Positions 3,373-24,763 of a stretch of DNA of 64,000 bases are shown here, piece after piece (position 1 is the stretch's first letter; each line of letters begins with the position of its first letter). A program made the position numbers and the translations under genes. The notes beneath the pieces are model-generated. The model was not told the origin of the DNA. It saw only the letters and a list, made by a program, of their open reading frames with translations, and made no database searches. The stretch comes from Afipia massiliensis (GTDB lineage Bacteria; Pseudomonadota; Alphaproteobacteria; Rhizobiales; Xanthobacteraceae). Location: positions 1,737,501-1,801,500 of the forward strand of contig NZ_LBIA02000001.1 in assembly GCF_001006325.2 (NCBI RefSeq), read 5' to 3'.

Positions 3373-3522
3373 GGTGATCGTCCTTAGTTCAGGATCGCTG
3401 ATCGCCGATTACCAAGCGATCCGAAGGAGCGGATCACGATGAAGTCGCAAGCAACTCTCTTTGACCCGGCGACAGGTCTGGCGGAGTGACCAACTTGGAG
3501 CCTAGGTGATTCGACTTTGTTT

Positions 3523-5139: not shown

Positions 5140-6996
5140 ATGTATCTCGACAAGCTAACGCTGAACAATTTTCGATCCTTTGCGGAGTCGGAAATTCCGC
5201 TGTGCAAGGATCTCACTCTGCTTGTCGGAGAAAACAATGGCGGCAAGAGCAACGCGATCGATGCCATTCGTCTCCTGACTGCTCCGCTGGGTGGGCGCCG
5301 GGAGATATATTGCGAGCCGACCGATATCCGGTTCGGTAGTACAGAACGGAAGTTCGAACTGACCGCTACCTTCGCGGAGTTGAGCCCGGCTCAGCAGGGG
5401 CGGATGATATCGGCCGCGACCGACGCGGCAATCAGTGGATGTGTCTTCGGTCTACAATACGACGAGACAACGGGGCGCTTTCCGATTCGACCGGCTTTGT
5501 GGGCGGGGCATCAGCGGGGCAATCCCGAGCCCGGGTGCCACGAGATGGTTCGTCACGTCTATTTGCCGCCGCTTCGCGATGCGAAGCGCGCGCTCGCCTC
5601 GGGTAATCCGACACGGATTTATGCGTTGCTGAATCACTTCCTCGAAGGCGGTGATCCGGAGGATCTGGCCAAAAGCCTGCGGCGCGGCGTCGAGGCGGAG
5701 ATCCTTGGCAAAGTCGGCGAAGCCGTCGAGGTCGGATTGAGTGCCCTGACGGCCGGTGTCCGTCGCCAGGCGGCATCGCTGGGTTTCGCGAGCGACGAGA
5801 AGCTGATCGATATCGCGCGTGACCTCCGCTTCAAGCTCGCCGATCATGGTATCGAGCCCGAAGACCTCCGTTACTCGGGGCACGGTTACGCGAATCTTCT
5901 CTACATGGCCACGATTGCGGTCGAACTCGAGAAGGTTAACGACGCCGATCTGACACTCTTCCTCGTCGAAGAGCCGGAGGCGCATCTTCACCCTCAGCTT
6001 CAGGCAGCGGTTTTGAGTTTCCTAGACGAGCAGGCCGAGAAGTCGCGCAAACCCCGCGAAGGCCACCAGGGGCCAGCGGGAGAGTTGCAGGTGATTGTGG
6101 CGACCCATTCACCGAATCTGTCGGCGTGGGTTGAAAGTAAGAAGCTCGTCTTTTTCCGCTCCTTCCTTCCAGTGCCAGTGGAGGGATCTACCGGTGACGC
6201 AGGAGAGGAACCGCAGCCGCTCGCCGGCGTACCTGCGGAGATGATGCCGGAAATCGAGCCGAACCCGGTCATGCCGGTCGATCGCCCGAGGCGGGTAACG
6301 CGCTGCATCCCGCTCGCAGTGCTGGCGCTTGATCCTGTCGAGCGCCGCAAGGTTGATCGCTATCTCGACGTCACCAAATCCGCCTTCCTTTTCGGAGGTC
6401 GCGTACTCCTCGTGGAAGGTATTGCCGAAGCGCTTCTGCTTCCCGTCATAGCCAAGAAGATCGTGCTGAAGGACGATGCCGAAAAGCTACGCCTGTTTCG
6501 ATCGGCCGTATTCGTGCCGATCGACGGGGTTGATTTCCAGCCTTACACCAAGTTGCTGCTTTCGCCGTTCAACGAGGTTCGGATCGCGGACCGACTCGTC
6601 GTGTTGACGGATGGCGATGGCGGCGAAGTAGCGGAAGGCGCGGTCAAGCCAGGCGCCGCGCGCAAACGCGACCTCGAGGCGCTCGCTGCGGGACTTGGCG
6701 CGACCGAACTCCTTGAAGTCGTCATCAACGATTATTCCCTGGAAACCGAGCTGGTCCGCGCCGACAACGCCGCCGTCCTCAAGGGGGTCTATCTCCAGCT
6801 TCACCCACGTTCGGGTGACAAGTGGAACGCAGCGGTTGCGCAGGCTGGTGCTGCCCAGGCTGTGGCGATCCAAAAGCTCTTCGAGACGACACGCAAGGGC
6901 GACTTCGCGCAACTCCTTGCAGAGGAGATCAACAAGGGCGCGGCCTTCACCGTGCCGGGCTATTTGAAGACGGCGATCGAGGCCCTGGTGAAATGA
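5140..6996 (+). CDS. gajA: Gabija-type OLD family ATPase-nuclease GajA
   Basis: The 618-residue protein combines an SMC/ABC-like ATPase with a TOPRIM nuclease, as in class 2 OLD proteins. ATPase: LNNFRSF at the N-terminus, Walker A GENNGGKS (30-37), ABC-signature-like region around 245-260, Walker B LFLVEEPEAHLHP (273-285), and the H-loop ATHSPN (321-326). TOPRIM: the conserved Glu in LLVEGIAEALLLP (E426) and the acidic pair in VVLTDGDGG (D491, D493). Known GajA proteins cut phage DNA when nucleotide levels fall. The gene overlaps the UvrD-like helicase gene by four bases (ATGA), the arrangement of Gabija phage-defence operons. An RBS-like GAAGGGG sits just before the ATG. PARIS is excluded because ATPase and TOPRIM are on one chain. 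Confidence 0.88.
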   Translation: MYLDKLTLNNFRSFAESEIPLCKDLTLLVGENNGGKSNAIDAIRLLTAPLGGRREIYCEPTDIRFGSTERKFELTATFAELSPAQQGRMISAATDAAISGCVFGLQYDETTGRFPIRPALWAGHQRGNPEPGCHEMVRHVYLPPLRDAKRALASGNPTRIYALLNHFLEGGDPEDLAKSLRRGVEAEILGKVGEAVEVGLSALTAGVRRQAASLGFASDEKLIDIARDLRFKLADHGIEPEDLRYSGHGYANLLYMATIAVELEKVNDADLTLFLVEEPEAHLHPQLQAAVLSFLDEQAEKSRKPREGHQGPAGELQVIVATHSPNLSAWVESKKLVFFRSFLPVPVEGSTGDAGEEPQPLAGVPAEMMPEIEPNPVMPVDRPRRVTRCIPLAVLALDPVERRKVDRYLDVTKSAFLFGGRVLLVEGIAEALLLPVIAKKIVLKDDAEKLRLFRSAVFVPIDGVDFQPYTKLLLSPFNEVRIADRLVVLTDGDGGEVAEGAVKPGAARKRDLEALAAGLGATELLEVVINDYSLETELVRADNAAVLKGVYLQLHPRSGDKWNAAVAQAGAAQAVAIQKLFETTRKGDFAQLLAEEINKGAAFTVPGYLKTAIEALVK

Positions 6997-8717
6997 TCGC
7001 AAAGCCGTTCGAGCCAACCGACGAGCAGCAGCGGGTGATCGAGCATATAGGCTCGGCGTTCATCGCGGCGTGTCCGGGCGCGGGGAAGACCCGCGTCATG
7101 GTCGAGCGAGCGCGGAGGCTTCTTAGTAGTGGGCCACCGGGTCGCGGCATTGCCTTTCTGTCCTTCACCATCGCCGCCGTTTCCGAACTGGAGGATCGGC
7201 TACGCCGGGAGGGCCTGGTCGAGACGCCGGCGTTTCCGCACTTCATCGGAACCTTCGACGCGTTCCTCTGGCAATTCCTCATCGCGCCGTTTGGTGTCGA
7301 TGGCTGCGACGCCAAGCCGAAGCTGATTCCGGACAAGGACGATCGATCGATTCAGCCGTTTCCTGCCGCGCAGGCCCTGCCGCTGGAATGTTTCGACCGC
7401 GTGACGGGAGACGCCATCCCGGCCATGATCCAGCGCCACGGCTTTCGTGGAAGGATCAACGCGCACGAGACGGCGGCGCGAAACACGCGCGCGCACTTTC
7501 TGGAGCGCGGCGAACTCGACTTCGCCGACGCGCGTTCCGTAGCGCTCGCCCGACTGCGCGATCCGGTATGCGGGGCGGTCTTCGGCCCAGCGTTTGCGGC
7601 GCGCTTCCTCGAGCTCATTGTTGATGAGGCGCAGGACTGCAATCCGGTCGACCTGGAGATCATCACCTGGTTTCGCGCGGTCGGTGTGCCGGTGAAGGTG
7701 ATCTGTGATCCGAACCAGGCGATCTACGGCTTTCGGGGCGGCGTAACGCGGGAACTTGGTCAGTTCGCAGAAACGTTCGGAGAGGCCGAGCGACTGCCCA
7801 TGAACGGAAATTTCCGGTCTAGCGGGCATATCACGAAAGGCGTGGCGGCCTTACGTGCGACCAACATGCGCGCCGCAATCGACGAGGCGCTGGGAGAGCA
7901 TCGCGAAGAACCAACGGCGGTTCAGATCCTGTCCTATTCGGGCAGGGGTGTCCCATCGACGATCGGGGCGAAATTCCAGGAGCTCACGGCAGCAATGGGA
8001 CTCGCGGCGCGAGATTGTCCCGTCGTCTCAGCGACCCGCCGGGCCGGCGCAAACGCCCTTGGCCATCCTCAGGATTCCGGGGTCCGGGACCTCAGCTACA
8101 GACTGGCGGTCGCCGTGAGCGATTTCCACTTTTCGTTCGAGCTTGGCGGCCGGAAGGAGGCGCTCGTCGCCATTCACCGGATCATGCTCGAATTGGGCGG
8201 CCGCATGGGCGGAAAGACCTATCACCAGCATCTCATAGACGCTGACGTGGCCCCCGATGCGTGGCGGCCAGAAGCACTCGCTTTGGTTCAGACGCTCCGC
8301 TTCAGCCCGGAGCGGTTCGCGACCGCCGAGGCATGGCACGACGAGGCACGCCGGCTGCTGGCGCCGTTGCTTCCGGCCGGCGGCCAATCCATCAATCAGC
8401 GTCTTCGCCGTAACGGCGAGCTGGCGAGGGCATTGGCGGTCGCGCCTGCGACCGGCCATCCGGCACGGACTATCCATAGCGTAAAGGGGATGGAGTTTCC
8501 TGCGATCTGCGTGGTGATGTCGCCGAGTACCGCGAAGGGCATCGTCGATTTTCTGGCTAGTGATGCTGCGGACGACAATGAGGAAGCCCGCAAAATCTAT
8601 GTCGGTGCATCGAGGGCGCAGCGACTGTTGGCGATCGCGTTGCCCCGTACCCAAGCCCCTCGCTTGAGGGATTTGATGACGGGGATGGGCGGCGTGGTCG
8701 AGCTCATCGCACTGTAG
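6993..8717 (+). CDS. gajB: Gabija-type UvrD/Rep-like helicase GajB
   Basis: I start the gene at the ATG at 6993, inside the gajA stop (ATGA), giving 574 residues; the frame is open further upstream within gajA but without homology. Superfamily 1A helicase motifs are in order: Q-motif region EPTDEQQRVIE, Walker A ACPGAGKT (26-33), Ia LSFTIAAVSELEDR, Walker B IVDEAQD (209-215), motif III QAIYGFRGG (242-250), motif V HSVKGMEFPAICVV and motif VI YVGASRAQRLL near the C-terminus. GajB partners GajA in the Gabija complex, sensing DNA ends or nucleotide depletion and boosting anti-phage activity. It is somewhat longer than the classical Bacillus GajB. Role by context and family; spectrum of phages unknown. 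Confidence 0.85.
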   Translation: MIAKPFEPTDEQQRVIEHIGSAFIAACPGAGKTRVMVERARRLLSSGPPGRGIAFLSFTIAAVSELEDRLRREGLVETPAFPHFIGTFDAFLWQFLIAPFGVDGCDAKPKLIPDKDDRSIQPFPAAQALPLECFDRVTGDAIPAMIQRHGFRGRINAHETAARNTRAHFLERGELDFADARSVALARLRDPVCGAVFGPAFAARFLELIVDEAQDCNPVDLEIITWFRAVGVPVKVICDPNQAIYGFRGGVTRELGQFAETFGEAERLPMNGNFRSSGHITKGVAALRATNMRAAIDEALGEHREEPTAVQILSYSGRGVPSTIGAKFQELTAAMGLAARDCPVVSATRRAGANALGHPQDSGVRDLSYRLAVAVSDFHFSFELGGRKEALVAIHRIMLELGGRMGGKTYHQHLIDADVAPDAWRPEALALVQTLRFSPERFATAEAWHDEARRLLAPLLPAGGQSINQRLRRNGELARALAVAPATGHPARTIHSVKGMEFPAICVVMSPSTAKGIVDFLASDAADDNEEARKIYVGASRAQRLLAIALPRTQAPRLRDLMTGMGGVVELIAL

Positions 8718-9229: not shown

Positions 9230-10900
9230 TTAAGCCGCTCGCGTCGCTCGCGCGTCCTTTCTGGCTTCCTTCGCGGCTTCGTCGGCCTCGATCTGCGCTC
9301 GTGTGCGGCGGGCACGCTTGTGCGGTGCTGGCGGAGCTTTCAATGCCGAGATTCTGAACGCCGGATACTTTTCTATTTCAATCGACATCGTTTCAGCCCA
9401 CCGGTCGCCGTAGTCAAATCCGGAATTGGAGTTCTTCGGTCGGTGACCTGTGATGTGTCCTTCAACCTCTCTGTCCATTGGGATGCGCCGCGCCACGCTT
9501 TTGAATGTGTGTCTCCAACCATGATTCGGCTTGATACCGTCCGGAATCAGATTCTTGGAGTGCAGCCATTCGGCCAATCGCTCTGCAACTTTTTTGAATT
9601 GTGGGTTGCCGGCCTTACCGCCGCGTCCTCTATCTGGATCATAGAACAGCGGTTTTCCCGACTTCCGGCGGCGATCGACGTAGTCTAGGAAGCCTTGCTC
9701 TCTAAGGTGGGAATGGATCGGAACGGTACGCCACTGCGCTGTCTTCTCAAGCGACGGTTTGATCTGCATGCACCATATACCGGTCTCTTTGTCCTTGGCG
9801 ACGTCGTCCGGATAAAGCGACGTCACCTCATTGACCCTGGCTCCTGAATAGCAGCACAACCAAGGCAGCCAGCGACGGGCCGCAGCGGTCTCTTCAGAGA
9901 TCAGATGAGAGTGGCCGTCGAGCGTTGCTGTCAGGATGGCTTCAGCTTCCTTCTTGGTGAAGCCCTTCTTGCGTGGCCGCAGGCTGTTCGTAGCGACGCT
10001 ATTGCGGACCCTAATCTGCAAAAACGGATTTTGGGCCAGCCGTCGCCGCTCGACCATGAAGCCGGCCGTCGCCGACAACGATGCTATCCAGACGTCGCGG
10101 ATCGACTTTTCGGCGTAGCCCTCGGCCTTCAGATGGTCGGCCCACTTATAGCCATCCGCCGTTGTCATCTGGGCTAGGTCACGGTGTTTGAGCCACTTGC
10201 AGAACGCCGCGATCTTCGGTCGCCAGCGCTTCGCCGTCGGACCGTCCTTTCCGCCCTTCAAGGCACCATTCTCGACGTACTCCTCGAACGCCAACACCAA
10301 GTCGAGCTTGGGTGATGTTCTTTTCGGCAGCTTCTTCAGTTCCGGGTTAGCGCTATAATCGCCTTCAGCAGCTCGCCCCACGTCGGCCACCGCGTCCCGA
10401 CGAGCTCTAAGGTATAGCGGTTTGAACCTCTCTACATCGGCAGGCGAGGCGCTGACGCCCTCTCGCTGTAAAAATTCGCATACCGCCTCGTCTAGTGCCG
10501 CAGCGTCATCCGCGTTGTCGGGATCGGGTATGCCGGCGGCCATGCGCATGACCGAGAATCCGGTTGGGTTGGCTATGACTGCGTCCCGGGCGGTGATGTG
10601 TGCGACCCCGCGCAGGGCGTGCAGATCCTGATGTGACAGGGGTTCGATTTCCGGCACGAGGTTCGAAGCTGCTGCCGGCGCGACAAGGCGAGCCCATTCG
10701 GCTTCGATGGCTGCGGAAATTTGGCCTATACGCTGATTGGCCGTCCGGAGATCGGTAGTGTCTAAAGACCGCCAAACCTCACTCTTTCCAACAAGAGAGC
10801 GCAGCTTTTCGGGGACTTTTTTGCGGAGCCACCAAGTGTTGACCTGGCTACCGTTAGCTTTCTTGGGACGGATCGGAGTAGGCATTCTTACGCTCGGCAT
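9230..10900 (-). CDS. Tyrosine site-specific recombinase (DUF6538 integrase)
   Basis: The 556-residue protein starts with a DUF6538-like arm domain (NTWWLRKKVPEKLRSLVGKS, about residues 20-65) and ends in a phage-integrase catalytic domain. The tyrosine-recombinase set is visible: R355 in YSGARVNEV, a Lys near 380-390, H460 and R463 in NHGWRHTF, H486 in ITGHRP and the nucleophile Y497 in GFDYGD. It would integrate or excise the mobile element. It is transcribed leftwards, about 100 bases from the putative att copy at 10998-11014, and divergent from a second recombinase at 11112. An internal ATG six codons in (MPTPIRPKKANG) is an equally possible start. All catalytic residues are present, so it looks active. 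Confidence 0.85.
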   Translation of the reverse strand: MPSVRMPTPIRPKKANGSQVNTWWLRKKVPEKLRSLVGKSEVWRSLDTTDLRTANQRIGQISAAIEAEWARLVAPAAASNLVPEIEPLSHQDLHALRGVAHITARDAVIANPTGFSVMRMAAGIPDPDNADDAAALDEAVCEFLQREGVSASPADVERFKPLYLRARRDAVADVGRAAEGDYSANPELKKLPKRTSPKLDLVLAFEEYVENGALKGGKDGPTAKRWRPKIAAFCKWLKHRDLAQMTTADGYKWADHLKAEGYAEKSIRDVWIASLSATAGFMVERRRLAQNPFLQIRVRNSVATNSLRPRKKGFTKKEAEAILTATLDGHSHLISEETAAARRWLPWLCCYSGARVNEVTSLYPDDVAKDKETGIWCMQIKPSLEKTAQWRTVPIHSHLREQGFLDYVDRRRKSGKPLFYDPDRGRGGKAGNPQFKKVAERLAEWLHSKNLIPDGIKPNHGWRHTFKSVARRIPMDREVEGHITGHRPKNSNSGFDYGDRWAETMSIEIEKYPAFRISALKAPPAPHKRARRTRAQIEADEAAKEARKDARATRAA

Positions 10901-10997
10901 GGTGGAGAACCTCGGTGTAGAACCGACGGTTCAAGAAACCCCGAAACCAGCGTATAAAACTGTATCTATTGGGCTTTTCGCGTGCCTCGGTGGCGAG

Positions 10998-11014
10998 TCC
11001 CTCCCTCTCCGCCA
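10998..11014 (+). repeat. att-like direct repeat, copy 1 (tRNA-Ser 3' end)
   Basis: TCCCTCCCTCTCCGCCA here is identical to 24747-24763. The last bases, CTCTCCGCCA, match the acceptor 3' strand plus encoded CCA of the intact tRNA-Ser in this same window (43240-43249), and the preceding GAG resembles the T-arm end GAA of many tRNA-Ser genes. No complete tRNA precedes it. It lies in the gap between two divergent recombinase genes, where an attachment site is expected. Confidence 0.6.
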
Positions 11015-11015
11015 G

Positions 11016-11046
11016 TTTCGTGTAACCTGCTGGGTTACCAACGAAA
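11016..11046. other. Nested inverted repeat next to att-like site
   Basis: TTTCGT (11016-11021) and GTAACC (11022-11027) pair with ACGAAA (11041-11046) and GGTTAC (11033-11038) around a 5-base loop. It begins two bases after the att-like repeat and lies about 65 bases before the second recombinase start. It could be a recombinase core- or arm-binding site, or a regulatory hairpin in the leader of the recombinase transcript. Confidence 0.4.
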
Positions 11047-11089
11047 TTTCAGACAGTTATTCGGCGACTTCCTGAACTGGGACATAACC

Positions 11090-11100
11090 CTGGTACAGAA
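11090..11100 (+). repeat. CTGGTACAG repeat near left end of the right element
   Basis: CTGGTACAGAA occurs 12 bases upstream of the recombinase start codon. The same CTGGTACAG core is found twice near the opposite end of the element (24642-24650 and 24655-24663), about 85-105 bases inside the right att copy, while here it is about 75 bases inside the left copy. Matching end-proximal repeats are typical of recombinase arm sites. Confidence 0.4.
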
Positions 11101-11111
11101 CCGAATTTTTT

Positions 11112-12806
11112 ATGTCCTACTCGTCGCTTCATCTCGTGAAACGTGGCCGTAGCTACTATTTCCGGCGTGCGATACCGGACGATCTCGCAAGCCTACTATC
11201 TTCACGCGAGATCAAAATCTCTCTGCGCACTTCCGACGCAATTAACGGAAAAATACGCGCCCGGTATTTGAGCAGCACACTCGATTTGGCGTTCAGGGAT
11301 TTGCGACAGATGACAACGATCTCCAATGATGTGATCCGCGAGCGCGCGAAAGACTATTTCAAGAAGCGTCTAAGCCAATCGCTTGAACATGTGTTTCTTC
11401 TTCCGCTTGATAAGACGTGGGATCGGCTTGCTGGGGTAGGCTATCTGCAGGATCACGAGGCTGAACTCCGCGCAAGGCTAGCAGAGCAAAATTTCACTCC
11501 TAGCATTCAGTCAGACGCACTCGGTCTTTTGGACATCGCCAATCTCACCCCGGCGATAAAGGCTTCAGAGGCCTTCCATTACGCGTGTAACGCGATTACG
11601 CGCGCTAAAATCGAGGACGCTCGAATTCTGGCCGCCCAGTTCTCAGGGCAATATGACAAAACGTTACCGCTCGATCCATTGTTTGCCGGAATTGTTGTAA
11701 CGGAGCTTCCCCCGCTTCCTGGGGAAAAGCCAATTCAATTAGGTCACACGCTGGCGTCGGCAGCTGATGTATTTTTCAAGTTTAAAAGCAAGAATGATTG
11801 GACGGCAAAGACAGCGGCAGATGTCAAACGGGTCCTCGCCCTTGCGTTAGCCCGGATCGGAAGCGAGCGGCCAATCAATTCTGTTGGCATCGAAGATGTG
11901 AAGGCGGTTCGTGATGCCCTTGGGCTGCTTCCGCCAAATTACATGAAGGCATCATCTAATAAGGGGATCAGTGTTCAAGAAGCTATCGACGCGAACATCT
12001 CGGGCGTATCGCTCTCCATTAAAACCCAAGATAAGTACTTTACGATGTTCCGGCAGTTTCTGATCTGGGCTTCTAATGAAGGTTACATCGATAAGGTGCC
12101 GGGAGCCGGCGTAAAGGTTGCAGGGGTTTCAAAGCTTTTGGCGGGTGAACAACGGGGCCCGTATTCGCTTGATCAGCTGAAACAGATATTCTCATCGCCG
12201 ATTTACACGGGTCATAAATCTACTGTTGTTCGTCACAAGCCAGGAAAGCTGTTGATCCGGGATGGCAAGTTTTGGGTTCCGCTCATCGCGCTTTATTCTG
12301 GAATGCGCATGGGCGAAATCGTCCAGTTACTTGCTTCGGATATCAAGGTTGAAAGCGATATATGGTACTTTGATGTGAGTAAGGGCGAGGGAAAGTCTCT
12401 CAAGACAATCTCAAGCAAGCGCCGTGTCCCAATTCATCAGCTACTGATTAAGATGGGCTTTCTGAAGTATGTGAAAAGCTACGCCAGCAATCAGCGTTTA
12501 TTCCCTGAAATAGAAAAAGGAAAAGACGGATACCACTCACATAACTTGAGCAAATGGTGGGGAAGATATTCGAAGCAGGTTAAATTCAAGTCTCCCAAAA
12601 CGGCATTTCATTCCTTCCGGCATAATTTTTTGGATGCTCTTCAGCAACAAGGTTTGCCAGAGTATTTAAACAAGGCGCTGATGGGGCATGCGGATAAGAG
12701 CGTGCACAGCCAATATTCAAGTGGTGTAAAAGTCAGTGTTTTAAAGGAAGCGATAGACAAGGTGTCGTTTGATTTTGATCTTTCGCACCTCGCGTTAGAG
12801 AATTAA
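11112..12806 (+). CDS. Tyrosine site-specific recombinase (DUF6538 integrase)
   Basis: The 564-residue protein begins MSYSSLHLVKRGRSYYFRRA, the standard opening of DUF6538 recombinases, followed by a core-binding region (about 215-330) and a catalytic domain. Catalytic residues: R399 in YSGMRMGEI, K436 in SSKRRVP, H500 and R503 in FHSFRHN, H526 in LMGHADKS and the nucleophile Y535 in HSQYSSG. It is the likely integrase of the element that ends at 24763, lying about 100 bases inside the left att copy. It faces away from the related 556-residue recombinase. Codon use is noticeably AT-richer than that gene, pointing to a different origin. Confidence 0.85.
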   Translation: MSYSSLHLVKRGRSYYFRRAIPDDLASLLSSREIKISLRTSDAINGKIRARYLSSTLDLAFRDLRQMTTISNDVIRERAKDYFKKRLSQSLEHVFLLPLDKTWDRLAGVGYLQDHEAELRARLAEQNFTPSIQSDALGLLDIANLTPAIKASEAFHYACNAITRAKIEDARILAAQFSGQYDKTLPLDPLFAGIVVTELPPLPGEKPIQLGHTLASAADVFFKFKSKNDWTAKTAADVKRVLALALARIGSERPINSVGIEDVKAVRDALGLLPPNYMKASSNKGISVQEAIDANISGVSLSIKTQDKYFTMFRQFLIWASNEGYIDKVPGAGVKVAGVSKLLAGEQRGPYSLDQLKQIFSSPIYTGHKSTVVRHKPGKLLIRDGKFWVPLIALYSGMRMGEIVQLLASDIKVESDIWYFDVSKGEGKSLKTISSKRRVPIHQLLIKMGFLKYVKSYASNQRLFPEIEKGKDGYHSHNLSKWWGRYSKQVKFKSPKTAFHSFRHNFLDALQQQGLPEYLNKALMGHADKSVHSQYSSGVKVSVLKEAIDKVSFDFDLSHLALEN

Positions 12807-14778: not shown

Positions 14779-15867
14779 ATGAACGGACGAACGATTTTAC
14801 AAGATGCCAAAGATCGGCTGGCCGACGAGGTTCTTGGGACAGCCATCGCAGTTCCGGAGCCTTTAGCGGTTTCCCCATGGGTGGCGATGAGCCTGCTTCA
14901 GAAGGCAATCCGCCGAAGTGAGACGGCACTCGCGTTGCAGGCTGCAGTGACGCTACTGCAATTGTCACCCGAACGCCTCTGGCGTCGGATCGGCTGCGTC
15001 GCATTCGAAGATGTGGGAGTAGCCGAACTCGAATGGCTATCGGTAACTACCGCCGCTCTATCGGGGAAACGCTATCGGACGAGCATCGGGAGCGAATGGC
15101 AGATTGCTAGCTACCTCGTCTCTCGAATGTCCCAAGGCAGTCAGTGCCGAAGCGCGGATGACCTGCTCCTTACTGCCGAATTGCACCCCAGGTATCGACG
15201 AGCGCGCAGCGAGCTTGCAGGCAAATCCACCGCAGATTTGTTGCGTATCGTATCCGGCTCGGCAGACCTTCCGGTTCGGGCAATTGCCGCCTGGTACGCT
15301 ATTGGAACAGATCGCCGTCCATCACCCTACCTCTTTGAACGCAAGGGCGATCCCGGCGCACTGTTTGACTGGATGTGCGAGGCCGGGCTTCCTCACACCG
15401 TCGTTGAAATATCGAGAGAGGGTTTCCGCAGGGTGGGCGAAGTCCTTTGCCCGTTTGTCGCTCTACTGAGTTCGACACACCTTCCGGCGCAGTTACCAAC
15501 CGAGGCGGATACCTTTCCCCCGGAAGTATTGATCGGCGACGGCATACCGAGTTGGGCGTTCGATATGTATACGCGAGAAGGTAGGGCCGCGTACCAAGCT
15601 TTCCTGCGGGGAAACAGCCAAAGCGCCAAATGGGTTCGAACATTCGTTCCTAAGCCGGAGCGGGTCCAATTTCTCGGGACGGCGATATTCCGCGTCGAGG
15701 GTGGTCTGGTCAAAAACCGCCTTCGTTGGGACACCGGGGATTGGCTGAAGCGTTCCGTCGATATCGAGTGCCACGGTCCGCGTTGTTCTGACGCCACGGA
15801 GCTATTGGCTCTCGTACGGGCCGATATTCCCAGCATCAACGAGGCGAGGGCAGCCCATGTCGGATGA
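14779..15867 (+). CDS. Protein with RarA/MgsA C-terminal-like helical region, recombinase partner
   Basis: The 362-residue protein has at about residues 38-75 the text SLLQKAIRRSETALALQAAV and then PERLWRRIGCVAFEDVGVAEL. This resembles the helical collar domain of RarA/MgsA clamp-loader-type AAA+ proteins (A-L-x-K-[AS]-[IV]-R ... A-L ... A-x-E-D-[IV]-G). There is no Walker A or B, so the ATPase part is absent. It overlaps the following recombinase gene by 11 bases, implying translational coupling and a joint role, perhaps a recombinase accessory factor. A strong GAGGAGAG RBS precedes the ATG at 14779. The domain reading is moderate; the function is inferred from the pairing. Confidence 0.5.
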   Translation: MNGRTILQDAKDRLADEVLGTAIAVPEPLAVSPWVAMSLLQKAIRRSETALALQAAVTLLQLSPERLWRRIGCVAFEDVGVAELEWLSVTTAALSGKRYRTSIGSEWQIASYLVSRMSQGSQCRSADDLLLTAELHPRYRRARSELAGKSTADLLRIVSGSADLPVRAIAAWYAIGTDRRPSPYLFERKGDPGALFDWMCEAGLPHTVVEISREGFRRVGEVLCPFVALLSSTHLPAQLPTEADTFPPEVLIGDGIPSWAFDMYTREGRAAYQAFLRGNSQSAKWVRTFVPKPERVQFLGTAIFRVEGGLVKNRLRWDTGDWLKRSVDIECHGPRCSDATELLALVRADIPSINEARAAHVG

Positions 15868-16840
15868 TCTAAATCGCTATAATCCTCCATTCTCGAGACC
15901 CAAAAAACCCGAATTGGCACACCTCAGTGCAATTAATGACAGGCCTGAACTTACAGATAAAGTTCGGGCATATGTTCGTGAGAGCCTGTCTCCAAGTACT
16001 CAAATCGCTTATCTCAGCGACCTTCTTCATTTTGAGGGCTGGGGCGGGCGTATTCCTGCCTCACCCGAGACGGTGGCGGAATACATCGTCGCACACGCTG
16101 ACAGTCTTAGTGTTGCCACCCTCAACCGACGTCTTGCCGCAATAAGCAAAGCCCATCGATCCCATGGCCTAGCCACCCCAACATCCACCGAACTCGTCAA
16201 ATCTACAGTACAGGGCTTAAGACGCATCAAAGGTAGCGCTCAGCGACAGGCTAAGCCCCTCATGAAGGAAGACTTAGTGGCAGTACTGGACGTTATCGGA
16301 GGGCGGCCTAAGGACGTGCGCGATTGCGCACTGCTTCTACTAGGTTTCGCGGGCGGCTTCCGAAGGTCTGAGTTAGTCGGGTTGGCTTGCACAGACGTTG
16401 AACCTGTCCGTCAGGGTATTGTAGTCAACCTCCGCCGCTCAAAAACCGATCAGAACGGGGAAGGGCGTAAAATCGGTATTCCGCGCGCAAAGGGCCGGTG
16501 GTGCCCGGTTGCGTCGCTAGAACAATGGCTAGATCGCTCTGGCATCACCGAAGGCGCCCTGTTCAGACCAATCGACCGTCATCATCGAATTGGCATGAAA
16601 CCGCTGTCAGGCGAGGCTGTATGCCTGATCGTAAGGGATCGGGTTCGGTCGGCTGGTATCAATCCAGTCGGTTACTCGGGTCACAGTCTCCGGGCGGGGC
16701 TTGCCACCAGCGCAGCTCAGGCGGGTGTATCGAGTTGGAAAATTCGTCAACAAACAGGGCACGCGTCGGATGCGATGCTTGCCCGGTACATTCGGGACGG
16801 AGAGCTTTTCACAGCTAACGCAGCGGGAGCACTGCTTTGA
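15857..16840 (+). CDS. XerC/D-like tyrosine recombinase
   Basis: At 327 residues this is the size of Xer and simple integrases. A SAM-like core-binding domain (about 30-125, SPSTQIAYLSDLLHFEGW) precedes the catalytic domain with R169 in GGFRRSELVGL, K196 in RRSKTDQ, H276 and R279 in GHSLRAGLAT, H302 in TGHASDAM and the nucleophile Y311 in LARYIRDG. It overlaps the preceding RarA-C-like gene. It is distinct from the two DUF6538 integrases and, being internal to the element, may derive from another inserted element or act on cargo shuffling. It ends 19 bases from the convergent membrane-anchor gene at 16859. Confidence 0.85.
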   Translation: MSDDLNRYNPPFSRPKKPELAHLSAINDRPELTDKVRAYVRESLSPSTQIAYLSDLLHFEGWGGRIPASPETVAEYIVAHADSLSVATLNRRLAAISKAHRSHGLATPTSTELVKSTVQGLRRIKGSAQRQAKPLMKEDLVAVLDVIGGRPKDVRDCALLLLGFAGGFRRSELVGLACTDVEPVRQGIVVNLRRSKTDQNGEGRKIGIPRAKGRWCPVASLEQWLDRSGITEGALFRPIDRHHRIGMKPLSGEAVCLIVRDRVRSAGINPVGYSGHSLRAGLATSAAQAGVSSWKIRQQTGHASDAMLARYIRDGELFTANAAGALL

Positions 16841-16858: not shown

Positions 16859-17410
16859 TCATGTGTCTGGTTTTGCCCACAAGGCCGGGTTCGTTTTGCC
16901 TTCCTTCCACCAAGTTGGCAGGGAAAGTGATCGATGGCGGTTCTCGCCCATGGTGCGTGCTGCACTCGAGAAAGGCATTGTATTGTGATGTGCTTTACGT
17001 ATTCCAAGGATAACGGCCGAAGCCGTCTGCATTGAAAGCCTTGTACGCAGTACATCCGCTTCGCGCTTTTCTTCAGTGAATTCCCCGCCGGTAAGTGCGT
17101 CTAGTAATTCAGACATCAACTCGTCGAGGATTGCAGCTTCTTCGGGTGAAAACCTTAATCGCAACTCAGCGTACAACCCGTCGCACAGGTCCTGCGCTCC
17201 CCTTATTCTGGCTTCTGCAAGGAGCGCTTTGTTCTGCTCATCATATTTTGTCGACCAGTATTCAGAGGCCTCCAAAGCGACGCTGTGGACTGCCTCGCAA
17301 ACTTCGTCGCATCGCGAAGCAAATTCGTCACGCCGCATTTTCCAAAAGTTAAATATTGCTCCCACAAGAGCGCCAATCAATGCGCCAATTAAACCCGAGA
17401 GAAGGATCAT
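16859..17410 (-). CDS. Membrane-anchored helical protein, third gene of GHKL-STAS cassette
   Basis: The 183-residue protein has one N-terminal transmembrane helix (ILLSGLIGALIGALVGAIF, glycine zipper-like, residues 2-20) followed by a basic turn (KMRRDEF) and a long soluble, probably helical part extending into the cytoplasm. Its ATG overlaps the stop of the DUF4325 gene by four bases, so the three genes 18917-16859 form one operon. The C-terminus carries PTWWKEGKTNPALW. No family is recognised. In a partner-switching arrangement it could be the membrane target or effector whose activity is released by the STAS-like protein; that is inference from gene order only. Confidence 0.55.
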   Translation of the reverse strand: MILLSGLIGALIGALVGAIFNFWKMRRDEFASRCDEVCEAVHSVALEASEYWSTKYDEQNKALLAEARIRGAQDLCDGLYAELRLRFSPEEAAILDELMSELLDALTGGEFTEEKREADVLRTRLSMQTASAVILGIRKAHHNTMPFSSAARTMGENRHRSLSLPTWWKEGKTNPALWAKPDT

Positions 17411-17757
17411 GGCTTCGGCAACAAACTACGCGCCGCAGCATCGGCCACATACGTTTCCGCTCTCTTCTTATGATGTTTGAAACGCGATGTGTGTGCCTCT
17501 ATGCGGAGATGTCTCTTCAAATCGGCCTCTGAAAATCCTTCTCTTATCAGTCCGCCAAACGCCTCTTCTAAAAATGAGGAGCCGTATCCGGCGACATCGT
17601 CAAGAATGACGATCAATACCTCGCCTGATGCTTGCACTTCCTTCAGGGCGGGGATCAATTTTTCTTCGCGAAACGCTTGACCACTAAACTCGCCGTTCCT
17701 TCGGTATCGAGGTCCGGGATATCGGCTAAAATCTGTGGCGATTGAAAGCGTTCGCAT
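17407..17757 (-). CDS. STAS-like domain (DUF4325) protein
   Basis: I use the ATG at 17757 because GAGGA sits five bases before it; an ATG 30 bases upstream has no RBS. The 116-residue product carries the DUF4325 signature: FSRYPGPRYRRNGEFSGQAF followed by VLIVILDDVAGYGSSFLEEAF and GGLIREG. This fold resembles the anti-anti-sigma STAS domain, which is phosphorylated or bound by GHKL kinases in partner-switching systems. The upstream gene encodes exactly such a GHKL ATPase (11-base gap), and the downstream gene a membrane-anchored protein (ATGA overlap). The canonical phosphorylated serine would be within GYGSSFLEE. Function of the cassette unknown. Confidence 0.75.
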   Translation of the reverse strand: MRTLSIATDFSRYPGPRYRRNGEFSGQAFREEKLIPALKEVQASGEVLIVILDDVAGYGSSFLEEAFGGLIREGFSEADLKRHLRIEAHTSRFKHHKKRAETYVADAAARSLLPKP

Positions 17758-17768
17758 TTTATCCTCTT

Positions 17769-18917
17769 CTACACTTGAATTCGCCATTCAATCAGCGTGC
17801 CGCCGATGGAATGCTCATAGTTCCTGCTCACAACTTTCTTCCCGCGTTCCCAAATATATTCGCCCCTGTTGCTTAGAATTCTCAACCGCCCCTCTCTTGC
17901 GCGCTCGGCTACTTCTAACATGGTATGTAAACCCTTCCCATGCTGCGGGAGGCCGGTTTTAGTTTTTGAAATCTTCATGGCAAGTCTGATGCTTATATCA
18001 TCTCTAACCGTCCCGATTTCTCCGCTCCCGGAAAAACGTCGCAGAAGCTTTTCAAGCATCCCCCAATGCTCCCATTGGGGGAGACTAACGGGAATAGAAA
18101 CGCCTTGATCATATACCGCTACCGTGACCGTCTTTAAATTGGTGTCGATAGCACCCGTCATCCACCATCTGCGCAGGATTGGAAAATCCCATGTCTGCGA
18201 AGGCGGGTATGCCCACATATGAGAATTGAGCGCGGCTTCGAGCATTCCACCGTAGGGCTCAGCGTACAGTAAGCGATCACGCTCATCTGGCGGCAGTAAG
18301 CTTCCCAGATGCTCTTGTAGGCGACCGAGAGCCTCTCCTTCGACTTTTTCGCCGGAAAGAAACTTCAAAACCCTTATGTGCTGCTGACCGTCATCTCCGA
18401 CGGCGTGTGGCTGCATCTCTAACAACTCATGAAAGCCAACAGAACGTAAGACCCTCATCACGTCTGGGTTCCAAAGATGCTCGTCAACAGTATGTGGCTT
18501 GTAACCGAGAATATGCTTCCGTCGATCATAGATCGATGCAAGCACTAAGGCAGCAGTAGGCGAGATCATCGTAGCTGGCTTGAAGTCGAAATACGTTTCG
18601 ATCCTGTGCGATCCGCGCTTCCTGATTGGAGGTAATCTTCGTTTTTGTACTGCATCCTGCCAAAGAGACCGCCGCATGCCTTCCAAAAAAGCCAAAGTTT
18701 CTTCAGTGTTGTTGTCCAAACAAAAGGTCGCGGGCATCGGTTTAGAGCTATATGCCCAAGCTCTTCGATAAGTTCCGTCTCTAAAGACCATCACTTTTTT
18801 TGGAGAAGAACCGGCGCGCTTTGCGCGCTTCCATTCTTTCCAAACTTGCGATCTCCAAAGACACCAATTTGCGTGTTCCTTGAGATGATTTCGTTGCCTT
18901 GGTGTGGTGTAGCGCAA
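17769..18917 (-). CDS. GHKL (histidine-kinase-like) ATPase, first gene of GHKL-STAS cassette
   Basis: TTG start at 18917 with GGAGAAG about seven bases upstream; 382 residues. The C-terminal half is a GHKL ATPase: N box MLEAALNSHMWAY (E227, N231), G1 box VYDQGVSIP (D270, G272), G2 box HGKGLHTM (G327, G329) and the final GGTLIEW (371-378). There is no phospho-acceptor histidine domain or receiver partner, so it is not an ordinary sensor kinase but like anti-sigma-type GHKL proteins. Residues about 115-168 (ISPTAALVLASIYDR ... VMRVLRSVGFHELLEM) look like an additional degenerate STAS-like unit. It heads an operon with a DUF4325 protein and a membrane protein, next to a restriction enzyme gene in a mobile element. 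Confidence 0.7.
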   Translation of the reverse strand: MRYTTPRQRNHLKEHANWCLWRSQVWKEWKRAKRAGSSPKKVMVFRDGTYRRAWAYSSKPMPATFCLDNNTEETLAFLEGMRRSLWQDAVQKRRLPPIRKRGSHRIETYFDFKPATMISPTAALVLASIYDRRKHILGYKPHTVDEHLWNPDVMRVLRSVGFHELLEMQPHAVGDDGQQHIRVLKFLSGEKVEGEALGRLQEHLGSLLPPDERDRLLYAEPYGGMLEAALNSHMWAYPPSQTWDFPILRRWWMTGAIDTNLKTVTVAVYDQGVSIPVSLPQWEHWGMLEKLLRRFSGSGEIGTVRDDISIRLAMKISKTKTGLPQHGKGLHTMLEVAERAREGRLRILSNRGEYIWERGKKVVSRNYEHSIGGTLIEWRIQV

Positions 18918-19025: not shown

Positions 19026-22000
19026 TTAGCCCTCGACCACAGCGTCTGGATGCCCCGCCGCAAGCGCGTTCATGTAGGCGAGGCAAAGGTCGCGAGAGCG
19101 GTAGCGATCCCAGACGTCCGTTTCCTCGCGGTGGACGATAGGAAAAGTGGAGTAGACGTAGCTCACATCGTCTCGGTCCAGAACTCCGTAGAGATGGAAA
19201 AAGAGCGCGTCGAGCTTCGCCCGCAGGTGCAGTCGGCGCTCTTCGTCCCAGATGAAGGGCGGCTTTACTAAGCCATCGGCTTCCACATATCCAATAGCGC
19301 TGGCAAAGGGGGCCATGTCTTGCGCTGTATAGGTGAGTTCAAGCACCGCATCACGCACGATCCTGCCTGCCGTCATGTTTCCGAACTTCACACGGTCGAA
19401 GGCTTCTTGCGGGACCACCGGAAGCTGTTCGACGATGTACCAACTCGCGTGGTTGCCTAGAATTTTAGTTCTTGCAATGAAATCAGTCATCGCCGAGTTC
19501 AGGTTCGCCAGTAGTAGCGTCTGAGCGTTGGCTCGCTCGGTCGGATCGGTGATCTGCATTTGTATCAGTGGTAGCGTATGACCAGCTGCGTAAGGCGGCA
19601 ACAAGGAGGAAATGATCGAGCGTGCGTTAGTCGTGGACGTTACGTCCTTAATAGCGATCTCTACAGACAGCGGGATCGCCTCCCGCACATAATATCGCGG
19701 CTCAGGATAGAAGCTGGGGTCCAGATGCTCCTCAAGCGTTGTCTCAAGTCCCTGCCCCGAGCGGTGGACGTTCTTGGCGACGACGACGATCCCGGACGCG
19801 CGATGGTCATATGCCTGCACCATCTTGCCTTCGTATAGCGGCACCCAGTCGCCTTCCGCATTGCGGAAGCGGTGGCCTCCGATTGGATATGCTCCCTCTC
19901 GGCTTTCAAGCTCATTCCGGGTACGGAACATGGCGCTGTCATTCGCCATGTGGAACATCGTTGTGTATTTTACGGGCCAAGCCCGTGTTTCGTCACCGTT
20001 CGAACGATCAACGAGAATAGGGTATCGACTATAAATCTGCGTCGAGATGTCTTTGTCACGCCCGGCTCTGTAAATGGGTGCAGTGTGACTATTCGGGTTG
20101 ACGTGCTCGAAGTGTTCGAGGGTCATTCCGAAGACCGTGCCGTCTTGCTCAAGCTCGCCGACGTCACGCACGAATGACGCGAACTTGCAGCCGTCGAAGG
20201 CCGTCGCAACTGGCGAGAAGACTAGCACGCAGAACTTGAACCTGTAGTAGACATCGGGGAAGAACAGTTTGCCGTCGCGCCGTTTATTGAAGAAGTCATA
20301 GACGCACTTGGCTGTCTTGTTCTCCATGAGGCCGGAAAAGAACCTCTGCGAATTCGTCTCAGTCGCAATACCAGACGGGACAAGTAGGCCTACCATTCCG
20401 TCCGGTTTACACAGATGCTTGGCTCGTTCAATGAACAGCGAGTTGATGTTCGTGTCCCCGCCCGACAGCAACGGGTAATCCCTACCCTCACGGGCCATAC
20501 GACTGGCGGTTTCGGCGCGATTACTGGCCTTGTCAAAATCGGCTGTTAGCGGATCGGCCTCATTGACCAGCCGCTCGATGAGCTTTTTTCGATCAGCCGC
20601 ACGAGGGGCAAGGGCAATCGCGGGTCTGCGGGCGGCGAACCATTCCACCTGCTGGAGTTTTATCCGGTCCCAAGGCGGGTTGCCTACAATGGCATCGAAC
20701 CCGCCATTCAGCCCATCGGCCTCCCAATCAGTCCAGACACCGGGAAATGTTACTTGCCAGTGCAAAAACCGCTCTTCTTTGATGAGTTCACGCACAGCAT
20801 TGAGGATTGGTAGGAAATTCGGCGTGTCGCGTCCCACACGGATTTCGGTTCGCCCCATTGCAATTTCTACCGGATCGCCAAATTGCCCGTCGAAGAAATG
20901 CTTGATCAGCGCCACGCTCTGACGGTCGCGCAGGTTCAGCCAGTCGAGGGCGTGGATAAAAGATAACAAGGCCGAAAGCGGTCTGGTCATCTCGGTGATT
21001 TGATCGAATATGTGTGATGACTTTTCGGCTTCCGCGATCTCAGCGTCGGTTAGCCCCTCAACAAGCTGCATTTGCGCCGCTGACTGGATGGCGGATCGGA
21101 TTGGGCCATGCAGCACCAACGGTGATCCATACCGAGTGACCTTCTCAATCCCGGCCTTGACCCAGGAACCGAACAGGCTGTCCCCAACCCGCAAGTGGTG
21201 ATCGAGAAAGCTCAGAGGTGCGCCTACGGTGAAGGTGTGGAGCCACAGAGCCACCTTCGCCAATTCAACAGCCATAGGGTTCTTGTCGACCCCGTACACA
21301 CAGCGCTTGAGCACCATGCGGCGGATGATGTGACGGTCGTCAAGCTGGTCTTCATCGACGCTCCAGCCTCGCGCCTCAGCGTTGCCCATAATCGTGTTGC
21401 GGATCGCCTCGATGCGCTCGGCGAGTGGCGAGATATAATCTCCCCAAGTCACCTGCGCTTCGGCCTCGGCCATCGCGTCAATGATCTGATCGGTTATCTT
21501 GTCCACCACGCTGACGAGAAAGTGGCCCGATCCCATTGCCGGATCGCATATCTTGAGTTCAAGAAGCCGCATTGCCGGGTCTAGACGTGTCAGGCCGCCC
21601 ATGCGCCGACTGCGAGGGGGCTGTGCCTCAAGCTCGGCAACCTTCGCCGTAAATGCCGCCAGATGGCGGTTCACAAGTGGTTCCAGCGTTTCGTCGAGGA
21701 TTAGGTCAACTAGATCGTCCGGGGTGTAGTAGCTACCCGATCCCTTGCGAGCGAAGATGTTGGGGCGAATGAGGACGTCACCATCCTCACGGACGATCTC
21801 ATGTTCGAGCAGGCGCTCATAAATCGAACCCAGCTGCTGCACGCTCAAATCGCGGTAGTTGATATAGCGCCGTCCCTGCTCGGATTTTACGAAGGACAGG
21901 GTGTCGACGACGTTCGCAATTAGAGTGTCTCCGAGCCGTATTTCGTTGAGCAGCGGGGTACGATCCTGATTGAACAGGCCTCCGTTGTAGGGAGGCAGGC

Positions 22001-23093
22001 CGATGTCGGCATCGCCCTTATCAATGGCGCGGCAGAGGTCATCGAGAACCGACCAATATCGGGCGGCGGTGGTCGAGAAGGCATCACCGGCATCCATCCG
22101 CTTGCCCACATCAAGGCGAACCCGCTCGCGCAAGCCGTAGTCCTCATACCGGCGCTCGTGAACCGGCAGGAGGTCTCTGTCTTCGGCATAAAGGATGAAC
22201 AACAGTCGATAGAGTAGGACCAGCGCCGCATCCCGCACATCGTTGAGCGGCGCGGCTGGAGCTGCCGCTGCAATGCCACGTGCGAGTTCGGGGAAAGCGA
22301 AGCCGAACACCAAATCAGAGAGGTTCTGAGCAACCCGTTCTTCATAGAACCTTCCCTCATCGAGGGCTCGCTGATGGAAAGTTCGGTGATCGGGGCTAGG
22401 CAAAAATGCCTGACGCCGGAACACAAGGACGAACACTTTGAACCAGTGATGCTGCTCGTCGCTGGTAAGTTTGAACAATCCCTCATTATGCCCGGGGACC
22501 CCGATGACGGCCGCAAGATCGATCTCGAAGAATTGCTCAGCAACCGACCGAGCGCCGGAGTAATAAAGTCGCCAGCGGGCACCGTTGGTCAGAATACCCC
22601 ATCGCAGCTTTCCGCTGGTCAAATCATCAACCCGGCGCAGATATCGCAACATCTGAGTAGACGGAGCCGTTACCTCATCGCGTTGATCAGAACGGCGGTC
22701 GAGGGGGCGGTTCCAGCGCTTGCTTTCAACGATAGCCGCGCCCAACTCATACCGCCGCCATTCCTCTGCGTGCTCGACGGCCCTCTCTTTTGCGGGGGCG
22801 TCTGCAAACAGCAACCCATCAGGCACGTCCTGGCGGCCCTTCGTAGTCAGGTTTTGTTGCTTCAAACTGTCTGCCCACCCGAGGAGTGCAAGCACCCGCC
22901 AGATTAGATCATCCTCAGTATGGGTCTCGTTGGGGGTCTGGGCGGTGGGAAAACGGGCGAAAACGCCTGCGATGTCGTCGCGTAGCTTTAGGAGTTCTGC
23001 ATCGCCTAACGCTAACCAGTCTGGCAGGTCTGTGATTGCCCCCTCAATAAAAGCATTGGAGAAAAGGCTCCCCTGAAAACCACCTGAAGCCAA
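19026..23093 (-). CDS. Single-chain Eco57I-like (type IIG/IIL-like) restriction-modification enzyme
   Basis: TTG start at 23093 after GGCGGGG; 1355 residues. An N-terminal PD-(D/E)XK-type nuclease is suggested by VPDGLLF (D92) and AAIVESKRW (E123, K125). A helical connector follows, with YYTPDDLVDLIL (455-466) leading into an N6-adenine methyltransferase: motif I CDPAMGSGHFLV (516-527) and motif IV NPPWDR (805-810). The last 500 residues form the target-recognition part. Such chains methylate one strand of host DNA and cut unmodified DNA. No separate specificity, helicase, DISARM or BREX genes are nearby. PglX-like alternatives are less likely because of the ExK motif. A 22-bp inverted repeat 33 bases before the start may be its operator. 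Confidence 0.8.
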   Translation of the reverse strand: MASGGFQGSLFSNAFIEGAITDLPDWLALGDAELLKLRDDIAGVFARFPTAQTPNETHTEDDLIWRVLALLGWADSLKQQNLTTKGRQDVPDGLLFADAPAKERAVEHAEEWRRYELGAAIVESKRWNRPLDRRSDQRDEVTAPSTQMLRYLRRVDDLTSGKLRWGILTNGARWRLYYSGARSVAEQFFEIDLAAVIGVPGHNEGLFKLTSDEQHHWFKVFVLVFRRQAFLPSPDHRTFHQRALDEGRFYEERVAQNLSDLVFGFAFPELARGIAAAAPAAPLNDVRDAALVLLYRLLFILYAEDRDLLPVHERRYEDYGLRERVRLDVGKRMDAGDAFSTTAARYWSVLDDLCRAIDKGDADIGLPPYNGGLFNQDRTPLLNEIRLGDTLIANVVDTLSFVKSEQGRRYINYRDLSVQQLGSIYERLLEHEIVREDGDVLIRPNIFARKGSGSYYTPDDLVDLILDETLEPLVNRHLAAFTAKVAELEAQPPRSRRMGGLTRLDPAMRLLELKICDPAMGSGHFLVSVVDKITDQIIDAMAEAEAQVTWGDYISPLAERIEAIRNTIMGNAEARGWSVDEDQLDDRHIIRRMVLKRCVYGVDKNPMAVELAKVALWLHTFTVGAPLSFLDHHLRVGDSLFGSWVKAGIEKVTRYGSPLVLHGPIRSAIQSAAQMQLVEGLTDAEIAEAEKSSHIFDQITEMTRPLSALLSFIHALDWLNLRDRQSVALIKHFFDGQFGDPVEIAMGRTEIRVGRDTPNFLPILNAVRELIKEERFLHWQVTFPGVWTDWEADGLNGGFDAIVGNPPWDRIKLQQVEWFAARRPAIALAPRAADRKKLIERLVNEADPLTADFDKASNRAETASRMAREGRDYPLLSGGDTNINSLFIERAKHLCKPDGMVGLLVPSGIATETNSQRFFSGLMENKTAKCVYDFFNKRRDGKLFFPDVYYRFKFCVLVFSPVATAFDGCKFASFVRDVGELEQDGTVFGMTLEHFEHVNPNSHTAPIYRAGRDKDISTQIYSRYPILVDRSNGDETRAWPVKYTTMFHMANDSAMFRTRNELESREGAYPIGGHRFRNAEGDWVPLYEGKMVQAYDHRASGIVVVAKNVHRSGQGLETTLEEHLDPSFYPEPRYYVREAIPLSVEIAIKDVTSTTNARSIISSLLPPYAAGHTLPLIQMQITDPTERANAQTLLLANLNSAMTDFIARTKILGNHASWYIVEQLPVVPQEAFDRVKFGNMTAGRIVRDAVLELTYTAQDMAPFASAIGYVEADGLVKPPFIWDEERRLHLRAKLDALFFHLYGVLDRDDVSYVYSTFPIVHREETDVWDRYRSRDLCLAYMNALAAGHPDAVVEG

Positions 23094-24746: not shown

Positions 24747-24763
24747 TCCCTCCCTCTCCGCCA
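24747..24763 (+). repeat. att-like direct repeat, copy 2 (tRNA-Ser 3' end)
   Basis: TCCCTCCCTCTCCGCCA, identical to 10998-11014. It marks the proposed right end of the element; the chromate operon starts about 155 bases further on. Upstream bases differ from copy 1, so identity is limited to the core, as expected for a recombinase crossover region in a tRNA 3' end. Confidence 0.6.

Follow-up and report, generated by a model that had tools for sequence, protein, structure and literature searches.

The window analysed here is a stretch of 64,000 nucleotides from Afipia massiliensis (contig NZ_LBIA02000001.1), and all positions given below refer to it. Three minus-strand open reading frames, found where an earlier note made from the sequence had placed them, encode a STAS-GHKL kinase-like protein (K), a stand-alone STAS-like protein (S) and a membrane-anchored protein (M). 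These genes and the features surrounding them are as follows.

17769..18917, minus strand: K, STAS-GHKL kinase-like protein of 382 amino acids, start codon TTG (open reading frame list)
17407..17787, minus strand: S, stand-alone STAS-like protein (DUF4325), open reading frame of 126 amino acids (PF14213, E 8.8e-12; hhalign to VapS; PDB match)
17575..17580, minus strand: codons of S70 and S71 in the numbering of the 126-residue frame, candidate phospho-acceptor pair (conservation and VapS alignments)
16859..17410, minus strand: M, membrane-anchored protein of 183 amino acids, one N-terminal transmembrane helix and then a predicted helical bundle (hydropathy, model, charge pattern)
17342..17407, minus strand: codons of the M transmembrane helix, residues 2–23, including GLIGALIGALVGAIF (hydropathy and charge pattern)
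19026..23093, minus strand: Type IIG restriction-modification enzyme, context outside the triad (PF07669, E 1.5e-18; PADLOC REase_MTase_IIG 2.5e-69 and DrmMI 2.2e-78)
15857..16840, plus strand: tyrosine recombinase converging on M, context (PF00589, E 4e-13)
24747..24763, plus strand: right end repeat of a 36.2-kb island, 17 bp, matching the 3' end of tRNA-Ser CGA; its left counterpart falls beyond the window

The TTG at 18917 used as the start of K corresponds to the same start point in several homologues, with longer N-termini in some. The true start of S is likely the internal ATG at 17757; the ten residues preceding it are mostly or wholly absent in nine relatives from the S alignment, and the longer frame would share 19 bases with K. 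Provided that S starts at this ATG, the 11-base gap between K and S that had been described is correct, and the ATGA overlap of the S stop with the M start is confirmed. The Type IIG enzyme shares the strand of K and lies 108 bases upstream of it.

The K protein appears to comprise a basic helix (residues 6–35), a STAS-like domain (residues ~60–170) and a GHKL domain of SpoIIAB/RsbW type (residues ~180–382), with a single long helix preceding the STAS part in the structural model. By predicted fold, which is of kinase type, the nearest matches of the GHKL domain are SpoIIAB, RsbW and UsfX, serine kinases of STAS proteins. The N box (E227/N231), G1 box (D270/G272) and G2 box (G327/G329) are intact, as previously read, and near-invariant across the family: N231, D270, G272, G327 and G329 are each invariant among the 121 aligned K proteins, 120 of which also have E227. 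The absence of a histidine acceptor domain likewise holds, in that HisKA was matched neither in the window K nor among the Pfam families found for 75 K proteins. Pfam, searched to an E-value of 1, gave no helix-turn-helix domain for the window K and S, and none is among the four families found for the 75 K proteins. The basic N-terminal stretch carries a net charge of +8 over residues 1–38 in the window and a median of +14 over ~49 residues in 104 proteins, with starts as called.

Profile alignment with VapK-type kinases places the N-terminal half of K opposite their STAS half, so that K is a STAS-GHKL fusion. An hhalign comparison with four such kinases, so termed by their PIN-protein neighbours and not by a published VapK sequence, covers both domains (273 columns, E 8e-20), and the N-terminal half alone is matched with a probability of 85% (E 6e-6). 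The window K has no Pfam match of its own, and Pfam STAS was found in none of the 75 K proteins. The N-terminal half gave no hhalign match to the S family, so the STAS reading of this half rests on the VapK-type kinases. The STAS half had been overlooked in the earlier note.

The S protein is a stand-alone STAS-like DUF4325 protein, as had been stated, and its PF14213 match confirms this. It aligns with the VapS of a Deinococcus plasmid (hhalign E 2.9e-6), and the best PDB match of the S profile is Escherichia VapS (PDB code: 9z7o), a weak one at E 0.085. Among 162 distinct S sequences, residue 71 is Ser in 161 and residue 70 is Ser or Thr in 142; Ser71 lies outside the retrieval pattern with which the relatives of S were collected. 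Residue S70 is aligned opposite VapS Ser48, and the neighbouring S71 is the more conserved. The acceptor may be S70 or S71.

The single N-terminal membrane helix ascribed to M is confirmed by hydropathy (mean 2.47 from residue 2), and in the model (pLDDT 91) it is followed by a helical bundle. The transmembrane helix shows G/A-xxx-G/A spacing (GLIGALIGALVGAIF in the window), and a small-xxx-small-xxx-small pattern is present in the helix of 32 of 63 M proteins versus 16.1 expected, which suggests helix packing into oligomers. In these 63 proteins, which are those of 74 above the transmembrane threshold, the mean K+R count is 3.29 after the helix versus 0.44 before it, with more after in 55. 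The bundle is probably cytosolic and within reach of S, as this family charge pattern indicates. A loop carries the motif T107-G-G-x-F, with T or S at 107 in 100 of 102 aligned rows. Pfam returned no recognisable toxin domain for the window M or for 106 M-family members; PIN was matched neither in the window M nor among the 12 families found for those members. The possibility that M is a VapC was rejected, there being no PIN match and an hhalign probability of 0.5% with a VapC. Fold matches of the M model are generic helical bundles, including chemoreceptor and kinase sensor domains as well as FAT and vinculin bundles.

The neighbours of DUF4325 genes were collected across genomes, viral contigs, plasmids and a phage. 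Searches with the S alignment (A1) matched 251 related loci in genome contigs and 166 in viral contigs, and the best 80 of each were taken; with eight plasmid loci (11 records found) and one phage added, 171 S places were obtained. K lies directly upstream of S in 160 of them (genome 77/81, viral 76/81, plasmid or phage 7/9), and K together with a third gene of at least 90 residues is present in 155 (genome 73, viral 75, plasmid or phage 7), these places not being independent draws because the retrieval pattern is biased towards this S subfamily and some prophages are represented both by viral contigs and by genome loci. The order of K, S and M is conserved far beyond chance. S stands without K in 11 places; in three (L094, L106 and L158) it lies at most 750 bases from the end of the available sequence, and in two (L045 and L105) short K-like remnants remain. 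Five places have K and no third gene, three of them (L016, L035 and L119) with fewer than 450 bases remaining.

Homology clustering was applied to the 154 plus-strand loci that have all three genes. The largest cluster holds K from 154, S from 154 and M from 136, the third genes being divided into clusters of 136, 10 and 4 and four singletons. Flanking genes of the same loci served as a control, and their largest clusters hold 23 of 144 upstream and 5 of 142 downstream genes. For the 73 genome loci only, the counts are 73/73 for K, 73/73 for S and 72/73 for M, with 2/67 upstream and 1/69 downstream; the M figure is flattered because the smaller set lowers E-values, the 154-locus set giving 136 at the same threshold. 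The downstream genes of the genome loci contain no homologous pair among 2346. Pairwise distances covary in Mantel tests (K-S r 0.49, K-M r 0.64, S-M r 0.39; 0 of 999 permutations each), a pattern that fits inheritance as a single unit. K, S and M thus form a real, conserved three-gene unit, and the third gene, whose lack of conservation the earlier note had named as counting against its proposal, is conserved in most loci.

Third proteins vary at the margins of this unit. Of 163 such proteins, 132 have a hydrophobic stretch at the N-terminus, and the main M family accounts for 143 of 164, the window included. Ten are remote relatives of M (probability 90%, versus at most 0.9% for 25 decoys) with one to three hydrophobic stretches each; six come from Bacteroidota contigs, and one each from Omnitrophota, Methylobacter, Methylophaga and a viral contig. 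Four, from an Acinetobacter plasmid and three viral contigs, form a separate group showing no relation to M, and seven stand alone, including those of a Vibrio scophthalmi plasmid and of a Leptospira plasmid.

A related three-gene operon, the anti-phage toxin-antitoxin system VapKSC, was reported by Chambers et al. (EMBO J, June 2026; PMC13373217). According to passages of that report, VapS, which has an inhibitory C-terminal helix, binds VapC, and a phosphomimic at VapS Ser48 no longer holds it. VapKSC gives ~2-log protection against phage Bas42, abolished by mutating any of the three proteins. The same passages describe CapK (HTH-STAS-GHKL), which is activated by ssDNA and phosphorylates CapS (STAS-wHTH), whereupon CapS leaves the DNA. 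Activation by ssDNA was shown biochemically for CapK only, VapK not being testable by the authors, and the ssDNA-stacking aromatics are VapK F54 and CapK W68. A restriction-modification system lies directly upstream in 88 of 443 capKS loci. A word search of the main text of PMC13373217 did not return 'transmembrane'.

The profile alignments show K and S to be homologous to VapK and VapS, and by the same kind of comparison the pair is related to CapK-CapS. In a VapKSC-like locus on the Deinococcus plasmid, the kinase matches Pfam STAS at residues 30–107, S is a DUF4325 protein (PF14213, E 1.5e-14) and the third gene encodes a PIN protein. The window triad resembles VapKSC in being a three-gene operon of the same order, with a STAS-GHKL kinase that appears to lack an HTH, a stand-alone STAS protein and a third gene that would be the controlled target. 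It differs in that VapC is a PIN-domain protein whereas M is a membrane-anchored helical bundle, in the basic N-terminal helix of K, and in the acceptor region, which reads SS-FLEE in S versus S/T-A/P-F-L/F-N in five VapS-type sequences compared by eye. A further, probable difference concerns the stacking aromatic. M117 of K lies opposite CapK W68 and VapK F54, a mapping made by alignment through Deinococcus VapK W53; just 12 of 121 K proteins have an aromatic residue at this position, where R, K or E prevail (64 of 121), although one of the four PIN-type kinases is also non-aromatic here (L185). The published activation step may therefore not carry over to K, and an ssDNA signal cannot be assumed for a protein in which this aromatic appears to be replaced and a basic N-terminal stretch is present instead.

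With CapK-CapS the triad shares a STAS-GHKL kinase and STAS substrate pair and a restriction-modification enzyme directly upstream, but no HTH was found in K, S (126 amino acids) has no C-terminal wHTH, and the downstream immune operon is replaced by M and a converging recombinase. The pairs SpoIIAB-SpoIIAA, RsbW-RsbV and UsfX-RsfB are similar in the serine-kinase type of the predicted GHKL fold, whereas K has an extra STAS-like domain, the third gene is a membrane one and no sigma factor adjoins. Indeed, Pfam found no sigma factor among seven window proteins scanned or among the 25 families listed of 79 matched by 141 neighbour genes. From SiaB-SiaC-SiaD of Pseudomonas the triad is distinguished by M having no GGDEF match. 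The proposal of a partner-switching pair with no adjoining sigma factor is thereby supported, both by the homology to VapK-VapS and by the unrelated flanks. The cassette had also been called undescribed, and as worded this fails, because the K-S pair has its homologues in VapK and VapS of the three-gene VapKSC; a search of open-access PMC full text found neither a description of the version with a membrane third gene nor an experiment on it. The same search returned no account of the triad as a housekeeping regulator, which the earlier note had held would speak against it. Of 398 genomes sampled across the phylum, 29 had a DUF4325 match, own genome counted. In a small sample of 30 DUF4325 loci, window included, ~9 were of the K-S-M kind versus 3 VapKSC, with third genes sorted by eye and one of the ~9 having no transmembrane stretch at the chosen start, and K-S-M may be the commoner of the two in Pseudomonadota.

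The setting of the triad is mobile, as in the earlier note, which had placed it in an integrative element between a recombinase and a restriction enzyme. It lies inside a 36,212-bp island at tRNA-Ser(CGA) with the 17-bp repeat of the tRNA 3' end at both ends. In a genome of the same genus the tRNA is uninterrupted and the island is absent; one side of the tRNA there corresponds to the window right flank (90% identity over 5.8 kb) and the other to ~0.5 kb of left-flank sequence that includes the tRNA. The island also carries a complete Gabija pair, with GajA at 5140–6996 and GajB ending at 8717. Elsewhere the triad is found on plasmids of Vibrio, Acinetobacter and Leptospira. K is interrupted by an IS element on one Acinetobacter plasmid, and on a Novosphingobium plasmid two annotated genes are followed by an open frame for M. 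Three triad plasmids of 14 to 55 kb have toxin-antitoxin pairs nearby, and S occurs without K on a Vibrio parahaemolyticus replicon and a Pseudomonas plasmid. Searches with the single window sequences gave no match for K in viral contigs and none for M in plasmids at E <= 0.1.

Phages carry the triad as well. In Marinobacter phage AS1 it lies in the repressor region, and in passages of the description of Francisella phage KIRK (PMC7924643) the CI repressor is followed by a 293-residue protein 23% like a phage AS1 protein, then by a DUF4325 protein and a 125-residue transmembrane protein. Among 130 upstream genes from 67 viral loci, Peptidase_S24 was matched 18 times, HTH_3 10 times and Phage_CI_repr 4 times, families that can overlap per gene. 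The triad can thus adjoin CI-like repressors in viral contigs. In phage lambda, RexA-RexB is a two-part prophage exclusion system beside cI, formed by a sensor and a membrane effector, and the likeness to K-S-M is one of position and logic only.

No named defence model covers the triad, in keeping with what had been claimed: PADLOC models gave no match for K or M and only PRTase_III-A at E 0.043 for S, and NCBIfam gave none for any of the three. Enrichment near known defence genes, which the earlier note had proposed as a check, was not clear. A matched test compared 141 genes beside 24 S loci, two of which (L045 and L046) have no intact K, with 144 control genes ~78–116 kb away on the same contigs, all called by a simple ORF caller. 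At 1e-20, 49 PADLOC models were matched by neighbour genes versus 10 by controls. The models listed, 25 of the 49 for neighbour genes, collapse to ~seven protein kinds (ThsA, ThsB, ThsC, HsdS, HsdR, CapP and DinG) versus ~six (mad3 on three genes, RtcR, PDC-S48, DEDDh, PDC-M37B and DolB), and no enrichment is therefore claimed. Pfam phage integrase was matched by 3 of the 141 neighbour genes, among 25 of 79 families listed, and is absent from the 25 of 148 families listed for controls. A defence role of K-S-M is plausible, and the island of the window does hold Gabija and the Type IIG enzyme.

On balance we favour, with modest confidence, the reading that K-S-M is a self-contained partner-switching, toxin-antitoxin-like module, built on the VapKSC-type kinase-STAS switch, in which a membrane-acting M limits phage. 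By homology to VapKSC, S would most likely clamp M in the manner of an antitoxin, with K as the trigger for the release of this target; the third gene had already been put forward as the controlled target, and its conservation in 136 of 154 loci makes it the natural candidate. At rest, unphosphorylated S would be bound to the cytosolic bundle of M and keep it inactive. Stress or infection would be sensed by K, whose GHKL domain would phosphorylate S at the S70/S71 pair, and phosphorylated S would release M. The freed M could then assemble via its small-residue transmembrane helix and disturb the inner membrane, so that growth would stop and phage spread be limited. The module would travel as cargo of its carriers, whether island, plasmid or prophage. 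Since no gene beyond these three is conserved, the simplest output is a membrane killer.

Several other arrangements of the same parts were weighed. M might instead provide the input, keeping S or K at the membrane as a tethered sensor or anchor until some membrane event, with the output elsewhere in the cell. The chemoreceptor and kinase sensor domains among its model matches, beside the FAT and vinculin bundles, would fit this, and the conserved T107 loop could be a docking or modification site. However, no fourth gene is conserved on either flank, and any external output would thus need a protein shared by hosts as distant as Alphaproteobacteria and Bacteroidota. The bacterial sensor matches of M are moreover ligand-binding domains of a kind normally located outside the membrane, whereas the charge pattern of M puts its bundle inside; we regard this arrangement as unlikely. 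To a similarly low degree, K-S-M might serve the element that carries it, tuning its lysogeny, excision or superinfection exclusion, and have no part in host defence. The CI and S24 repressors beside viral copies, the position of the triad in the repressor region of phage AS1 and, in the passages on it, of phage KIRK, and the recombinase adjoining the window triad all speak for such a regulator, but the triad is also found on plasmids and at genome loci with no conserved neighbour, and Pfam gives the window S no DNA-binding domain such as the wHTH of CapS.

Somewhat less probable again is a plain addiction module that stabilises mobile elements and has no selected anti-phage role. The triad does lie near toxin-antitoxin pairs on three plasmids and occurs in phages and islands, and VapKSC is itself of toxin-antitoxin type, yet simple addiction needs no kinase sensor, and the phage protection by VapKSC depended on its kinase in the passages cited above (PMC13373217). 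An ordinary housekeeping sigma-factor switch like RsbW/RsbV, to which the predicted GHKL fold of K is indeed close, is very improbable. Of 385 genomes of the class, 10 had a match to the K profile, and a search with the single K sequence found 1 of 149 genomes of the family, own genome counted in both; K-S-M resides in mobile DNA among unconserved neighbours. A housekeeping gene is refuted by this patchy distribution.

Beyond the preferred reading of K-S-M as a phage-limiting partner-switching module with a membrane-acting M, a bolder proposition can be put only tentatively, and we incline more to doubt than to belief in it: K-S-M would add to the K-S immune switch a third class of output, beside transcription through CapS and RNA cleavage by VapC, combining a membrane toxin, a phospho-releasable STAS antitoxin, a signal other than ssDNA and the exclusion of rivals by the temperate phages that carry it. 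If this is true, the kinase-STAS pair would be a general plug-in switch that phages and islands have linked to a promoter, an RNase or the membrane. It would also raise the question of which signal drives a kinase that has no ssDNA-stacking aromatic. M would represent a new membrane effector family, and many genes now annotated as 'STAS-like DUF4325' with no assigned role would be explained.

The triad of a STAS-GHKL kinase-like protein (K), a stand-alone DUF4325 protein (S) and a membrane protein with a single helix (M) lies together with a complete Gabija pair in one 36.2-kb genomic island. The island is bounded by 17-bp repeats of the 3' end of tRNA-Ser(CGA), the left copy of which falls outside the window, and its empty site is present in a same-genus genome. 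The relevant features are as follows.

5140-8717, plus strand: Gabija pair, complete (PADLOC)
5140-6996, plus strand: GajA, full length (PADLOC, E 0)
near 6993 (likely start) to 8717, plus strand: GajB (PADLOC, E 3e-301)
9230-10900: integrase-like ORF, assigned by eye
11112-12806: integrase-like ORF, assigned by eye
15857-16840: recombinase
17092-17090: codon of M residue T107
24747-24763: right copy of the 17-bp repeat

The recombinase is accompanied by two more integrase-like ORFs (region 9230-12806), and the island may be composite.

In the M family, the start aside, conservation is highest at the loop position of T107, which is Thr or Ser in 100 of 102 M proteins; the rest of the protein is variable. 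At four of the related loci (L004, L153, L157 and L165), the membrane proteins encoded after K and S show no detectable homology to the main M family; effector exchange is a possible origin of these third genes.

S-type genes also occur in other arrangements. Loci L158 and L041 each carry two on opposite strands inside the retrieved stretch, perhaps representing two adjacent modules. On a Pseudomonas silesiensis plasmid (L006), a lone DUF4325-like gene (4989-5309), without K or M, is found close to a Cas3-like ORF recognised by eye (1056-3716). Elsewhere (L177, L179, L180, L186-L188, L191, L195 and L197), DUF4325 lies inside open frames of approximately 335-535 residues in other contexts, and therefore perhaps forms the C-terminal part of larger proteins; these represent different uses of the same domain.
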